Shown in pieces: positions 26,294 to 52,530 of a stretch of 64,000 nucleotides of DNA (its first letter is position 1; every line of letters starts with the position of its first letter). The DNA is from Haematobia irritans (Eukaryota; Arthropoda; Insecta; Diptera; Muscidae). Below the pieces are notes generated by a model that was not told the DNA's origin, did no database searches, and saw nothing but the letters and a program-made list of their open reading frames with translations. The position numbers were made by a program, and so were the translations under genes. Location of the stretch: the NCBI RefSeq assembly GCF_050003625.1, contig NC_134399.1, positions 37,154,671 through 37,218,670 of the forward strand, read 5' to 3'.

Positions 26294-26979
26294 TTAGGTG
26301 GAGTCTTTTAGATTAGTTGTTTTGGTAAGGAGTTGTTTGCTGGAGTTCTTATTATCTGGAGTGGCGTTTATGTTTTGACCATAGGATGGGTTTTTCTTCT
26401 GGTGCAATACACTGGCGTTCACGTACACTGGCACGGGTCGTGCTGGTGCTATTGTGGTTGGAGCTGCTGTTGATAGGTGGGGAAGTTGTGGGACGGTTGG
26501 ATTTGTGGACAATGGCTCCATATGATTCTCCATCTTCTGTGCTGGCACTGTATGCGTCGACTCCTCGTCCTCCTCCTCCTCTTCCAAAATGATATCTCCG
26601 CCCACCAGGGCTATGCGATTCATCTCTTTGACTGGTCGATGTTTTAGGGTGTTGTTGTTGTTGGTGGTCGGGTTGGGACTGGTGCTTAGCTTCTCTGGGC
26701 TCTGGTTTGGTGAAGATTGATCGCTCTTCGTTACCTCTGGTGTTTGTGGTATTTCGTCCACGCTTTGGATTGGGACCGATGCCTCCGTCAGCACTGACAC
26801 TGACTCCTTCATACTTGCTGTACTGTCGCTCGTAGGCGTACTTGTTTTGGCTGCTGTCAATTCCATAACTGACACTTGGGCGGAACTGCTGCAACTGGTA
26901 TTTGGCTGGTCCACTGTTGACATTTGCGACACAATAGTGCGACTGTGGTTGTGGCTCAATCCTGTATCTTTCCATTTCT
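26294..26979 (-). CDS. moody: moody last coding exon, frame A (first of two C-terminal tails)
   Basis: When the upstream exon (ending GCTGCAG at 27044) is joined to the first AG acceptor (26981-26980), the split codon becomes GAG. The frame then runs EKWKDTGLSHNHSRT to the stop at 26294, giving a 228-residue tail and a protein of about 619 residues. The tail is Ser/Thr/Pro-rich with a short acidic run (EEEEEDEE), predicted disordered and cytoplasmic. In Drosophila, moody makes two isoforms with different long tails. This frame overlaps the second tail (26352-26977) over nearly its whole length. Which one corresponds to fly isoform alpha or beta I cannot say. Confidence 0.85.
26352..26977 (-). 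CDS. moody: moody last coding exon, frame B (alternative C-terminal tail)
   Basis: Use of the second AG, two bases further on (26979-26978), makes the split codon GAA. The frame reads EMERYRIEPQPQSHYC to the stop at 26352, giving a 208-residue tail and a protein of about 599 residues. It is rich in Gln, Arg, Ser and Gly (RYHFGRGGGGRG) and unlike the frame A tail. The same 626 bases are therefore open in two frames. The ATG inside it is not needed as a start. The dual use matches the known two-tail organisation of Drosophila moody. Confidence 0.82.
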
Positions 26980-27045
26980 CTAAAACGAATGAGAGTGACT
27001 TAGATGTTTGCTCCTTTCTGTGGGAGGGAATACAATCACATACCT
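26976..27045 (-). promoter_or_regulatory. 64-nt intron with tandem AG-AG acceptors 2 nt apart
   Basis: Donor GTATGT at 27043. A pyrimidine-containing stretch leads to TTTTAG then AG before AAATGG. The intron is 64 nt to the first AG and 66 nt to the second. If it is retained, the frame stops at once (GGT ATG TGA), so splicing is required for either tail. Confidence 0.75.
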
Positions 27046-27831
27046 GCAGCACTACTACCACCGCCATTGGCACCATTTCCATGCTTCCCAAACGGTATTA
27101 AACGTGAAGGCTCACACATAATCACCGTCCTATAGGCCTTTCGATATTGTTTATTCATAATCACATAAATGATAGGGTTCAGACAAGCCGACATGTACAG
27201 CATTATATAGCTGAGAATATGTAAATTGGGATGATCCACATTCTGATCAGCGACCTTTGCTATTGTTATGGGCAAATAGCAGATGACAAAACTAAGGAAT
27301 ATGGCCAAAACCATTTTGGTGATACGCCACTCATTTCGTTTTGCTCGCACCTCACGTTGATCCTTAATGCGTGTGGTAGATTGCTTTTGTATAGACTCCT
27401 GTTTGACGTCTGTGGAAAAACTGCTACTCGATGACACTCTACTGTGGATATTCGCGGTTTCCACATTGCTGGTAGCCGAAGGTGGAGGTCTCAGATTATT
27501 CGGTATAGAGTTTTGCTTATTTGCATGGCGTTTCAGACGTTGCTCCGATTTGTGCACCACCCAAAAGATCTTTGTATAACAGGCTATAATTATGATGCAA
27601 GGTATCACAAAGGCTGTTATGAATAGTGTGGTTTTACTGCTATGGCCATGATCATCTTCTCGTATGGAACATGTGCCCAATTTTTCATCATAGGCAAATG
27701 TACCCCATGCACCAACCAGAGTAGGCAATTGCATACCGTACGAAAAGACCCAACAGAATACAATCATTGCTGCAATCCAATGACGTTTATATATTTTCCC
27801 ATAGGAGTTATGATGGGCTATCATAACATAT
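27044..27831 (-). CDS. moody: moody exon 4: TM4 to TM7 of the GPCR
   Basis: Moody is a rhodopsin-family orphan G-protein-coupled receptor. In Drosophila it acts in subperineurial glia to form the blood-brain barrier and affects drug sensitivity. This exon encodes residues 129-392 of the joined protein, starting with the Tyr of NRY (a DRY variant). It continues through TM4 (HWIAAMIVFCWVFSYGMQLP), extracellular loop 2 with Cys in GTCSI, TM5 (TTLFITAFVIPCIIIIACY), a long Ser-rich third loop, TM6 (MVLAIFLSFVICYLPITIAK), and TM7 with NPIIY at 347-351. The acceptor is TTTCAG (27834-27832), the donor GTATGT at 27043. The close match to fly Moody over IYKRHWIA, GHSSKTTLFITAFVIPC and KIFWVVHKSEQRLKRHA makes the assignment firm. 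Confidence 0.94.
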
Positions 27832-28642: not shown

Positions 28643-29080
28643 TTATTTACTTTTGTGGAACCAACCAGATTGCTCCAAAAACATTAACAAACTGCTTAAG
28701 TTAACGTTTTCCAGGTCAGCCAGTAATCTAAAGCTATATGCTCTTAAAATTCGCTTACGCCTTACACAAAAAGCAGGACACTCACACAAGAGGTGTTTAA
28801 TTGATTCCTTTTCCTCCACGTCATGACAGCTTATACAATAGTCATTATACTTCGCACCTATAGTTTTTGCAAATTCGCCTATCAGGCAGCGACCCGTTAT
28901 AGCAGATATTAGGAGTGCTATCTGACGCCTTGAGAACACTAGCATATCTAGTGTGCGGTTTAAGTTTAAATGGGACCATATTTGCTTGGTGTCGTTACAA
29001 CCCTTGCAATTTTCCCATCGAATATTGGCCATCATAACAGCCTTCTCACGCAGTAAGAGCTTGCAGGTGGCCAGAGGCAT
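28643..29080 (-). pseudogene. LINE ORF2 C-terminus (Cys/His motif), separated by a deletion
   Basis: Corresponds to the last 145 residues of the intact frame at 11584-14442, including CISCHDVEEKESIKHLLCEC. Relative to that copy about 10 nt are missing near 29105, which throws the RNase H part out of frame with this tail. Confidence 0.85.
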
Positions 29081-31748
29081 ACCAACAGATTCTAGTTCCC
29101 CTGGAATCTGTTCCTAGCCTTGCTAACACATCTGCTTCACAGTTCCCCGGTATGTTCCTATGACCAGGCACCCATATTAGGTGAATATTGTACTGCTCAG
29201 CCATCTCGTTGAGAGATTTGCGGCAGTCTATGGCCGTTTTTGAGTTAAGGAACACAGAGTCCAAGGATTTTATTGCAGGTTGACTGTCTGAGTATATATT
29301 AATGCCAATATTTGTTGGAACATTACTTCGCAGCCAATTCACCACCTCTCTTATTGCCAATATTTCAGCCTGAAAAACACTACAGTGATTAGGTAATCTT
29401 TTCGCTATTCGAATTTCCAGATCTTTAGAATATACTCCGAACCCCACTTGTCCATTCAATTTGGAGCCATCAGTATAGAAATCTATATATCTTTTATTCC
29501 CCGGGGTCTGTGTACACCACGCCTCACTGTTGGGAATTAGAGTTTCAAACTTTTTGTCGAAAAGTGGTTTTGCCAGGGTGTAATCCACTACGTTAGGCAC
29601 ATCTGGCATTACTTTGAGGACCGAACTATGACCGTACATGTTTTCCGACCACAGCGATAGCTCGCGCAACCGCACAGCCGTTGTTGCAGCTGACTGTTTG
29701 GCCAAAATGTCTAAAGGCAATAGATGTAGCATGACATTAAGGGAGTCTGTTCCTGTCTTACTAAATGCGCCTGAGATACATAAGCTCGCCATACGCTGAA
29801 CTTTATCTAAACAAGTCGGTTTCAGAAGTGCCGGCCACCAGACTACAACACCATATAGCATTATAGGTCTAACCACTGCCGTGTATAGCCAATGCACAAT
29901 TTTTGGTCTTAGTCCCCACTTTTTCCCTATTGCCGTTTTGCACGAGTACAAAGCTACCGTGGCTTTTCTCGCCCTCTCTTCAATATTAAGCCTAAAATTC
30001 AGCTTCCTGTCCAAAATAACGCCAAGGTATTTTGCACACTCACCAAAGGGAATTTCAGTACCCCCTAAGGAAATGGGCCTAACCGTGGGAGTTTTGCGAT
30101 CTTTGCAGTACATGACTATTTCTGTCCTTGCTGGATTTACACCAAGACCATTATCTTTCGCCCATTTCTCAGTCATCCGGAGAGCTCTCTGTATAATATC
30201 TCTGATTGTGGATGGGAATTTTCCCCTGACTGCTAGCGCCACATCATCTGCGTATGCCACCACTTTTATCCTTTCTTTTTCTAGAGAAACCAGAAGGTTG
30301 TTTATAGCAACATTCCAAAGAAGAGGTGATAGAACTCCTCCTTGGGGAGTGCCTCTGTTCACATACCTTTGTATGTTTGCTTGCCCTAGTGTGGCTGAAA
30401 TACGTCTCTTTATTAGAAGTTCGTCTAACAGCCTAAGTATACCTGGATCAACATTCAGAGTTGTCAGTCCATTTAATATCGAGCTCGGATGGACATTATT
30501 GAACGCCCCTTCGATGTCTAGAAACGCCACGTTTGTGTATTCTTTGACAGATAGTGAGCTTTCAATAAAGCTGACCAGTTCATGCAATGCGGTCTCAGTA
30601 GACCTGCCCTTCGAGTATGCATGCTGTCGTTTCGAGAGCAAACTTGAATCCACGCTAGTTCTAAGATACATGTCTATCATCCTCTCCAGGGTCTTAAGTA
30701 GGAATGAGGATAAGCTGATTGGTCGGAAATCCTTCGCACTCGAGTGAGAGGCTTTTCCTGCTTTAGGTATGAAGACGACTTTTGTTTCCCTCCACTTTTC
30801 TGGAATATATGCTAAGTTTACACATTGTTTATATATCACCGTCAACCAGGGGATAATTCTTTCAGCCACTGCCTGTAACTCCGCCGGAGTAATTCCATCA
30901 GGTCCGGGGGATTTGAATGGTCCAAAGCTATTTAAAGCCCATTTTATTCTAGATTCCGACACAATTTCCTCGATAGGAAGTGATCGCCGAGCCTCTGTTA
31001 CACCGCCGGAACATGGTTCAACCGTCTGATTTCCAGGGAAGTGTGTGTCCAAAAGTACCTCCAACGTCTCCTCACTGGACGTTGTCCAATTTCCCTCCGA
31101 TGTTTTAATGAAACCTGGAGCGGTGTTAGTGGATGCTAGTACCTTCCGTAGTCTGGAAGCCTCTGACGTATTCTCAATAATGCTACAGTAATCATCCCAA
31201 GAGTTTTGTTGAGACCTTCTCAGTTCTCGTTTATATTCTCTCAGATTCATCTTGTAAGTGTCCCAATCCTCCGGAGCTCTTGTGGACTTTGCTTTGTTAA
31301 AGAGCTTCCTGCAGGATTTCCTCATATTACTTAACTCCGTAGTCCACCATGGCGGCCGATTTTTTCCCCTTGGCTTTCCTCTAGGGCAAGCAGCTTTCAG
31401 TGAAATGTTGAAGGCCTTCGTAATCCGCTCCACTGCGTGTTCGATATCTTGCACAGTGCTCATATTTGTCTCCGGCATTTCCGGTATCATCAAATTGAAC
31501 GATTCCCTATACCTATTCCAATCAGCTTTCCTAACATTTGGCGGAAATATGGTCTTTGAAGTACGAACAGCCAATCTGAAACTGATGTAGCGATGATCTG
31601 AGAAGCTATGTTCCCTCAAAACTTGCCACTCAGATATCTTATCATTCAGTTCCGGAGAGGTCAACGTTACGTCCAAAACCTCTTGTCTGTTCCTGGTGAC
31701 GAAGGTTGGTGCATCTCCCTTATTGCAAACTACCAGGTTAGTACGCAA
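29046..31748 (-). pseudogene. LINE ORF2: end of endonuclease, RT and RNase H
   Basis: This 900-codon frame covers the last part of the endonuclease (VLDVTLTSPELNDKISEW, SDHRYISFRL), all RT motifs including FRPISLSSFLLK, GTPQGGVLSPLLWN and YADD, and RNase H (YTDGSK, SDSQPA, WVPGHR). It ends in a shifted peptide because of the downstream deletion. Its first 425 or so codons are repeated in the next unit by the tandem duplication. The protein is otherwise very close to the 11584-14442 copy, so the insertion was young when damaged. Confidence 0.88.
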
Positions 31749-33115
31749 AATAAACTCTATTAGCGACTCTCCCCTTGCATTAGTATCATTACTTTTAATA
31801 TCGAGCTCGGATGGACATTATTGAACGCCCCTTCGATGTCTAGAAACGCCACGTTTGTGTATTCTTTGACAGATAGTGAGCTTTCAATAAAGCTGACCAG
31901 TTCATGCAATGCGGTCTCAGTAGACCTGCCCTTCGAGTATGCATGCTGTCGTTTCGAGAGCAAACTTGAATCCACGCTAGTTCTAAGATACATGTCTATC
32001 ATCCTCTCCAGGGTCTTAAGTAGGAATGAGGATAAGCTGATTGGTCGGAAATCCTTCGCACTCGAGTGAGAGGCTTTTCCTGCTTTAGGTATGAAGACGA
32101 CTTTTGTTTCCCTCCACTTTTCTGGAATATATGCTAAGTTTACACATTGTTTATATATCACCGTCAACCAGGGGATAATTCTTTCAGCCACTGCCTGTAA
32201 CTCCGCCGGAGTAATTCCATCAGGTCCGGGGGATTTGAATGGTCCAAAGCTATTTAAAGCCCATTTTATTCTAGATTCCGACACAATTTCCTCGATAGGA
32301 AGTGATCGCCGAGCCTCTGTTACACCGCCGGAACATGGTTCAACCGTCTGATTTCCAGGGAAGTGTGTGTCCAAAAGTACCTCCAACGTCTCCTCACTGG
32401 ACGTTGTCCAATTTCCCTCCGATGTTTTAATGAAACCTGGAGCGGTGTTAGTGGATGCTAGTACCTTCCGTAGTCTGGAAGCCTCTGACGTATTCTCAAT
32501 AATGCTACAGTAATCATCCCAAGAGTTTTGTTGAGACCTTCTCAGTTCTCGTTTATATTCTCTCAGATTCATCTTGTAAGTGTCCCAATCCTCCGGAGCT
32601 CTTGTGGACTTTGCTTTGTTAAAGAGCTTCCTGCAGGATTTCCTCATATTACTTAACTCCGTAGTCCACCATGGCGGCCGATTTTTTCCCCTTGGCTTTC
32701 CTCTAGGGCAAGCAGCTTTCAGTGAAATGTTGAAGGCCTTCGTAATCCGCTCCACTGCGTGTTCGATATCTTGCACAGTGCTCATATTTGTCTCCGGCAT
32801 TTCCGGTATCATCAAATTGAACGATTCCCTATACCTATTCCAATCAGCTTTCCTAACATTTGGCGGAAATATGGTCTTTGAAGTACGAACAGCCAATCTG
32901 AAACTGATGTAGCGATGATCTGAGAAGCTATGTTCCCTCAAAACTTGCCACTCAGATATCTTATCATTCAGTTCCGGAGAGGTCAACGTTACGTCCAAAA
33001 CCTCTTGTCTGTTCCTGGTGACGAAGGTTGGTGCATCTCCCTTATTGCAAACTACCAGGTTAGTACGCAAAATAAACTCTATTAGCGACTCTCCCCTTGC
33101 ATTAGTATCATTACT
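30472..33115. repeat. Direct tandem duplication inside the LINE, unit 1,322 bp
   Basis: Units 30472-31793 and 31794-33115 read the same wherever I compared them, including translated frames. The junction at about 31792-31800 joins CATTACTT to TTTAATATCG, with about 1 bp of overlap. 1,322 is not a multiple of three, so the duplication breaks ORF2. Confidence 0.92.
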
Positions 33116-38496: not shown

Positions 38497-38667
38497 CTGT
38501 TAATGGTGATCATAGCAATGCATAGTAGAGAAACACCGATGTTGCCATACTGTATAAATGGAATCATCTTGCAAAGAGCTTCTCGAGGCTTCCAACTACC
38601 TTCAATAAAACGAAATGCACTAAATGGCAGGACAAAAGCACAGAATAATAAATCGGCGATGCACAAG
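38497..38667 (-). CDS. moody: moody exon 3: TM2 to TM3
   Basis: 171 bp, residues 72-129. The acceptor is TTTTCAG (38670-38668), the donor GTAAGT at 38496, both splitting codons in phase 2. It encodes TM2 with LCIADLLF (conserved Asp at 77), FRFIEGSWKPREALC with the conserved TM3 Cys, and IQYGNIGVSLLCIAMITINR, ending on the Arg of NRY. The ionic-lock motif is NRY, not DRY. Confidence 0.94.
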
Positions 38668-45992: not shown

Positions 45993-46133
45993 CTCATAAT
46001 AAATGCAGCTGCAACATTTCGAACTTTGGGGCATTTTATCAAAGCTGCCACTGTCAAAAAATTACCAAATATGCCGACTATCATTATGAGCAGGGTCATG
46101 ATGGCAGCAAATGTTAGCATAGATGGTGAAAAT
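45993..46133 (-). CDS. moody: moody exon 2: TM1
   Basis: 141 bp, residues 25-72. The acceptor is ATTACAG (46136-46134), the donor GTAAGC at 45992, phase 2 on both sides. Encodes FSPSMLTFAAIMTLLIM and VGIFGNFLTVAALIKC (TM1 with the conserved Asn in GN at residue 49), then PKVRNVAAAFIM entering TM2. Nearly the same as fly Moody in this segment, from memory. Confidence 0.94.
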
Positions 46134-52140: not shown

Positions 52141-52456
52141 TACTTGTTAAATATTTACAGTCAGAAAAGAACAGTGCCTGATATAAACGAAATGGACTGA
52201 GCTTTTGGATGCAATATTATTTTTTTTTTAAATGTTTTAGCATATAACTCTTGTTTTACACGTTATTCGTTATAATAATGGTAAAGGTTGAATTACATAG
52301 CATGCGTTAATGGAAGGGTTGATTTTCTCAGTTTGAAGCACTCTAACCAAATTGTTGCTTTCGAAGAGAAAATTCAACTCTTCAATCAACGGACGCATTA
52401 ACGGATGGCATGTAACTCAACCTTAAGTCTTAAATATAATAATTTAGTAAACTTAC
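52141..52456. other. moody intron 1, exon-proximal part
   Basis: Unique AT-rich intron sequence between the MITE and exon 1. No gene. Confidence 0.45.
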
Positions 52457-52530
52457 GTTTCTACAACCTCCGCGGCCATATTTTCATCGGTTGTGGCAGC
52501 GATACTATCATAGACTGCGTCAGTGCTCAT
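52457..52530 (-). CDS. moody: moody first coding exon (start codon)
   Basis: The ATG at 52530-52528 begins MSTDAVYDSIAATTDENMAA and EVVE, an acidic extracellular N-terminus. The donor GTAAGT at 52456 splits a Thr codon (AC|A) completed by exon 2, in frame. A TTTTTTCAG acceptor ends at 52532, two bases before the ATG region, so at least one non-coding 5' exon should exist further right. The N-terminus is short, has no signal peptide and is less conserved than the rest. Confidence 0.85.

Follow-up and report, generated by a model that had tools for sequence, protein, structure and literature searches.

The moody-alpha and moody-beta isoforms of Drosophila melanogaster are said to have been described originally by Bainton et al. 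in 2005. They are reported to arise by "differential splicing (by 2 nucleotides)" (PMC3554526), and moody of both D. melanogaster and D. virilis uses alternative frames of one exon (PMC9624432). Multiphasic exons are mostly short; in D. melanogaster 83 genes have one longer than 63 nt, and the 704-nt overlap of moody is the longest annotated in the FlyBase set (PMC4528330). In Drosophila, either moody isoform alone rescues the barrier while drug response and courtship need both, isoform abundance differs between the sexes, and the ratio is said to be under TraF control (PMC3554526). Two further kinds of system share with the horn fly locus described here the production of two proteins from one DNA in a frame set by splicing: the multiphasic or dual-coding exons of the FlyBase multiphase exon genes (PMC4528330) and the non-triplet dual coding of Caenorhabditis elegans (PMC13247117). 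NAGNAG tandem acceptors resemble it in that two near AGs compete for one intron, but there the AGs are 3 nt apart and the frame is kept, whereas in horn fly moody they are 2 nt apart and the frame changes to a second conserved one.

The window, a stretch of 64,000 nt from the horn fly Haematobia irritans, carries moody on its minus strand in five coding exons (Table 1). The NCBI-annotated H. irritans G-protein coupled receptor moody isoform X2 (P0001), which is the frame A protein, is 100% identical across the 491 aa queried, and all of its exons fall inside the window by tblastn. A 7tm_1 domain (PF00001, E 1.4e-49) and a closest match to named moody proteins identify the gene, by homology, as a predicted moody orthologue, a class A GPCR with a rhodopsin-type 7TM.

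Table 1. Features of the moody locus, in window coordinates.
Feature	Position	Strand	Basis
moody coding exon 1, residues 1-25	52456..52530	-	bounds from tblastn of P0001, 100%
moody coding exon 2, residues 26-71, start of 7TM core	45995..46132	-	bounds from tblastn, 100%
moody coding exon 3, residues about 72-129, acceptor TTTTCAG, donor GTAAGT	38497..38667	-	tblastn and sequence
moody coding exon 4, common receptor body, end GCTGCAG in phase 1	27044..27831	-	sequence, tblastn
last moody intron, 64 nt to AG1, 66 nt to AG2	26980..27043	-	sequence
AG1 (TTTTAG), frame A acceptor	26980..26981	-	sequence
AG2 (AGAG), frame B acceptor	26978..26979	-	sequence
frame A tail, 228 aa (first residue split across junction) and stop	26294..26979	-	annotated X2
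frame B tail, 208 aa (first residue split across junction) and stop	26352..26977	-	sequence, homology

A large moody intron holds a non-LTR retrotransposon (29049-31817, minus strand, the strand of moody) with reverse transcriptase, endonuclease and RNase H domains and a related open frame extending to 33217. A direct repeat in this element (30464-30763 and 31786-32085, 99%, spacing 1,322 nt) reflects either duplication within the element or faulty assembly. Two pairs of nested inverted repeats in the same intron (34834-34996/36339-36501 and 35158-35319/36014-36175; 162-163 nt, 98-99%) are possibly a mobile element or its remnant.

The preliminary description of this locus proposed a dual-coding tail exon whose frame is chosen by AG-AG acceptors 2 nt apart, and its coordinates and both open frames hold to the base. 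The exon body ends in GCTGCAG at 27044, the donor GTATGT starts at 27043, and the last intron reads GTATGTGATT...TTCGTTTTAG, followed by AG-AAATGG, with one occurrence of CTAA (27003-27000) as candidate branch point. There is thus one donor and, at one exon boundary, two AG acceptors 2 nt apart, as in Drosophila moody. The final base of exon 4 is a G in phase 1, so AG1 gives GAG-AAA-TGG (E K W) and AG2 gives GAA-ATG-GAA (E M E). The AG1 join yields SSAA/EKWKDTG..., open as far as the stop at 26296-26294, and the AG2 join yields SSAA/EMERYR..., open as far as the TAA at 26354-26352, with a second TAA directly after; the overlap open in both frames, 26977-26352, comes to 626 nt. The proposal that the choice between these acceptors sets the frame, AG1 leading to frame A and AG2 to frame B, is thereby well supported at the level of sequence. 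The intron opens with GTATGTGA, which contains an overlapping GT donor at +4 and, on retention, a TGA stop; as the preliminary description had predicted, a retained intron would end the protein at once, in SSAAGM-stop. That account left out the +4 donor, which would be a competing way into frame B. The GTATGT at 27043-27038 has a second GT 4 nt downstream and so conforms to the GYNNGY tandem donor motif; joined to AG1, the +4 donor would likewise lead into frame B, with GI inserted (SSAAGIEMERYR), and joined to AG2 it would give a short third-frame end.

The two tails are unlike in composition: frame A is Ser/Thr/Pro-rich with an acidic run, EEEEEDEE, and frame B is basic and rich in Gln/Arg/Gly (EMERYRIEPQPQ...EEKPILWSKHKRHSR-TAA-TAA). 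The frame B tail has homologues among the B isoforms of D. melanogaster type and of tephritids; it has no Pfam match and is probably disordered. With a simple phospho-code pattern of our own choice, we count 7+7 occurrences in the A tail and 3+4 in the B tail, in line with the report that moody PC is without conserved arrestin-type sites and that such sites number two to four in the other long-tailed receptors and isoform (PMC9624432).

The preliminary description had also implied a contrast with Drosophila, in suggesting for this fly a 2-nt tandem acceptor in place of a separate exon. This was mistaken, since D. melanogaster alpha and beta themselves differ by a 2-nt splice shift (PMC3554526). 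The same gene, the same 2-nt splice difference and a last exon read in two frames are found in both, with an overlap of 704 nt in D. melanogaster versus 626 nt in the horn fly and tails homologous in both frames. The horn fly differs in belonging to another fly family; its tails have only a few blocks in common with those of Drosophila, the ends of frame B differ, and the acceptor is TTTTAG-AG where that of Drosophila, inferred from a Drosophila-like retained intron (P0063), is TTYCAG-AG.

The long openness of frame B is not due to chance. When the frame A protein was held fixed, synonymous codons redrawn and stops counted over the 208 codons of frame B, none of 20,000 recodings was open with uniform codons (mean 11.3 stops) and none of 20,000 with codons weighted as in the moody body exon (mean 14.8 stops). 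When the synonymous codons already present in the tail exon were permuted, frame B was open in 2 of 20,000 trials (mean 6.8 stops). In the third sense frame this stretch contains 12 stops, and among 3,000 dinucleotide shuffles any frame was open in 3 and two frames in none. Over 626 nt the exon is open in both frames beyond chance, a feature expected of the Drosophila moody type. With the frame B protein held fixed, frame A was open in 1.1% of recodings (uniform) and 0.25% (body-exon usage), so that openness alone is weaker evidence for A.

If both tails are read from one exon, a single DNA sequence should be able to encode them at the known register, and for conspecific A/B pairs it can: over 161 of 161 codons in Zeugodacus, 158 of 158 in Bactrocera oleae (with one mismatch between the two bodies), 211 of 211 in Scaptodrosophila and 101 of 101 in Teleopsis, where A ends. 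Mismatched species pairs failed in 20 of 20 cases, after 4-28 codons. The D. melanogaster fit breaks at codon 71 and extends over 233 codons if one single-residue skip is allowed, in agreement with the 704-nt overlap given in PMC4528330; in 6,942 trials, no out-of-register placement went past 5 codons. Because conspecific pairs fit one DNA, we reject a separate tail exon as the source of frame B. Across species, the B tail of Anopheles moucheti (47 residues and stop) is compatible with five other Anopheles A tails over 48 of 48 codons; for the other two Anopheles B tails, compatibility with these five extends over no more than 27 codons. The B tail of the sand fly and an A tail of Lutzomyia are compatible over 24 codons, at which point A ends. 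From these cross-species fits, two-frame coding very probably predates the split of mosquitoes and higher flies.

Frame B proteins came from two moody searches in which the common receptor body was part of the query (best 120 of 342 and best 120 of 388 matches; 132 distinct proteins), and relatives surfaced only in this way; with the frame B tail alone as query, none of 592 candidates reached E 1e-3 or better. At least 13 dipteran or dipteran-like proteins with a frame B start are among the matches listed: a D. melanogaster-type protein (P0055) whose 399-aa body matches that of the D. melanogaster reference P0017 at every residue, D. nasuta (P0057, flagged as being of low quality), Scaptodrosophila isoform X2 (P0061), B. 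oleae isoform X2 (P0050), Zeugodacus (P0054), Ceratitis (P0060), a tephritid-like protein (P0052), Teleopsis (P0067), three Anopheles (P0087, P0090 and P0096), a dipteran-like protein (P0085) and the sand fly Phlebotomus argentipes (P0089). Among them are several predicted models. P0055 and P0052 each have a coding sequence that runs without a break on a contig no longer than 3,795 and 2,839 nt, respectively, and we infer from this that they come from spliced RNA. Among these listed matches, 12 of the 13 start with EMER (EMEG in the sand fly), and Q-rich sequence comes next; 11 of the 13, P0057 included, have the plain AG2-type junction. Scaptodrosophila X2 carries at the junction the GI insert expected of the +4, GYNNGY-type donor (1 of the 13 among the matches listed), and B. 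oleae X2 a VRFR insert, as from an upstream acceptor. P0057 begins in frame B, goes back to frame A and ends there; it looks frameshifted and was set aside, yet is counted in the 13. P0014 (Bactrocera latifrons), with a frame A start and a frame B end, looks like a frameshifted sequence or model and was set aside outside the 13.

Both horn fly tails are homologous to isoform tails of relatives, and the frame B protein is more conserved than the constraint from frame A accounts for; this is firm for Zeugodacus and Scaptodrosophila and less so for B. oleae and Teleopsis. We scored B similarity to the Haematobia B tail against 500 recodings that keep each species' A protein, plain and open-constrained; the open-constrained sampler can return incomplete sequences on failure, so that its nulls are approximate, and both nulls ignore codons shared by descent. 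The observed similarity was reached by 0 and 0 of 500 recodings (plain and open-constrained) in Zeugodacus and 0 and 0 in Scaptodrosophila, by 1 and 2 in B. oleae, and by 1 and 8 in Teleopsis. That frame B conservation is an echo of A is accordingly rejected for Zeugodacus and Scaptodrosophila; for B. oleae it is nearly rejected, and for Teleopsis the rejection is less firm. Frame A similarity to relatives exceeded all 500 recodings under both nulls in 4 of 4 species tested. The signal is clearest in the C-terminal block of frame B, tested in Zeugodacus and B. oleae; this block is EEKPILWSKHKRHSR-stop in Haematobia versus EESPILWSKHKCHSR-stop in Zeugodacus, identical at 14 of 16 positions including the stop (reached by 2 of 100,000 recodings), and B. 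oleae is identical to Haematobia at 13 of 16 (5 of 100,000). Haematobia and the tephritids have the end EEKPILWSKHK.HSR-stop in common, and Anopheles B tails likewise end RHSR-stop; the HSR end is not universal, D. melanogaster having EEKPILHGS, Scaptodrosophila EEKPIL, Teleopsis EEKPIISSKYKINIRKNMQ and the sand fly VLQWKYSK.

Between Zeugodacus and Bactrocera, identity is 117/158 (74%) in the A tail and 113/156 (72%) in the B tail. Nucleotide differences number 18, 22 and 31 at A codon positions 1, 2 and 3, in DNA deduced from the proteins and with no single-frame control; were only one frame coding, differences would be expected to cluster more strongly at the third position of that frame (A3 or A2). 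A both-frame synonymous rate for this pair was discarded as an artefact, those very sites being ambiguous in protein-deduced DNA, as was the absence of stop-making changes, which follows from the method.

We consider it very probable that the tail exon of H. irritans moody is a terminal, splice-switched dual-coding exon, orthologous to that of Drosophila moody-alpha/beta and governed by one donor and two AGs; the observed two-frame exon is real and correctly placed, and it is highly probable that it is functional. On the proposed mechanism, U1 would pick GTATGT, branching would probably occur at the CTAA at 27003-27000, and the spliceosome would take AG1 (TAG) most often and AG2 (GAG) sometimes. 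A TAG acceptor is expected to be the stronger, and a GAG acceptor is normally weak. Use of AG1 would give the acidic Ser/Thr/Pro tail, whose homologue is found in the D. melanogaster reference isoform P0017, and use of AG2 the basic Gln/Arg/Gly tail, whose homologue is found in P0055. Since the 7TM receptor is identical in both isoforms, the splice choice would alter the cytoplasmic tail alone, and since both stops lie in the last exon, neither mRNA should be a target of NMD. Both AGs would be used in Haematobia, with AG1 dominant, and the tails may have different partners and Drosophila-like roles.

Instead of AG2, the main route to frame B could be the downstream donor (GTAT/GT, a GYNNGY motif) joined to AG1, with SSAAGIEMERYR... 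as the outcome. Haematobia has this motif, and the join leads into frame B; Scaptodrosophila X2 (P0061) has exactly the GI junction, and a shift of +/-4 nt is the commonest among human minor tandem donors (PMC8055015). However, 12 of the 13 dipteran B-type proteins among the matches listed are without the GI insert, including P0055 and P0052, which we take to be transcript-derived. The +4 site, GTGATT, is moreover a poorer match to the donor consensus than GTATGT, and we regard this donor as unlikely to be the main route. A different objection to the AG2 isoform is that only frame A might be functional, frame B being open by composition or descent and AG2 products being splicing noise. Frame A alone was found as a Haematobia protein in the protein searches, AG2 looks weak as an acceptor, and the exon's codon set favours openness, with a permutation mean of only 6.8 stops; yet even that permutation left frame B open in just 2 of 20,000 trials and the two codon models in none of 20,000 each, frame B proteins occur in many flies, the B protein is conserved beyond the constraint from A with the species-by-species firmness given above and with its C-terminal block matched in the two species tested, and Drosophila needs both isoforms for drug response and courtship (PMC3554526). 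Taken together these make a purely frame A exon very unlikely. The converse, with frame B as the main product and frame A carried along, draws on the fraction of B-fixed recodings in which A is open (0.25-1.1%), but frame A is the annotated product, its similarity to relatives surpasses every recoding under both nulls in all four species tested, and the homologous tail is that of the D. melanogaster reference isoform P0017; this we find barely credible.

The mechanism, a 2-nt splice switch into a two-frame exon, is already known from Drosophila. What is new is the horn fly case, the frame B isoforms in Tephritidae, Diopsidae, mosquitoes and the sand fly, the frame B-like starts in moths and butterflies, and a possible second route through the overlapping GTATGT donor at +4 nt; among the matches listed in openly licensed papers there was no report of a two-frame moody exon outside Drosophila. 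At least seven moth or butterfly moody proteins (P0121, P0123, P0124, P0127, P0128, P0130 and P0131) have the frame B start EMERASR[VI]QLQQ, and a further lepidopteran protein, P0129 (QMERASR), falls outside the pattern. Lepidopteran B sequences leave room in frame A for the TMV.SQVS-like motif of insect A tails (five of the seven checked, by eye and with permissive sets). The resemblance of the lepidopteran EMERASR starts to dipteran frame B suggests that frame B predates Diptera. We see as an evenly balanced possibility that the two-frame tail has been kept since before Diptera radiated, possibly since the ancestor of Diptera and Lepidoptera: the AG-AG and the frame B start would have been held, the middle would have grown from about 48 codons in mosquitoes to more than 200 in some higher flies, the HSR-stop end would have been held outside Drosophilidae, Diopsidae and the sand fly, and an older frame A (SKTMVSQVSIAM-like in crickets and locusts, a termite and others) would have gained its second frame once and then retained it.

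Other moody ends were observed alongside these. Proteins ending in SAAGM occur in Musca vetustissima (P0005) and B. latifrons (P0051) and also as P0008, P0065, P0068 and P0069; because a retained intron (27043-27036) would give SSAAGM in the horn fly, a third, tail-less moody product may be widespread. The D. melanogaster UniRef Isoform B, P0056 (407 aa), ends in SSAAERNGKIPG, the third reading frame of the tail exon, an end not derivable from a canonical AG at the Drosophila-inferred TTYCAG-AG boundary. Six Anopheles-type proteins (P0091, P0092, P0093, P0095, P0097 and P0099) show a direct join to an acceptor inside the tail exon (SSVGDSPHPQHLVAIQDS), and this isoform drops most of the two-frame stretch.

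For horn fly genomics, the locus flags a blood-brain-barrier receptor isoform that was not found in the protein set searched (592 candidates). Long dual-coding exons are usually thought to be short-lived, since any single change may affect two proteins. A receptor with two tails on one exon across flies, short in mosquitoes and long in higher flies, is a rare natural series in which to measure the mutual constraint of two frames, and it offers a clean test of how the spliceosome chooses between AGs 2 nt apart.
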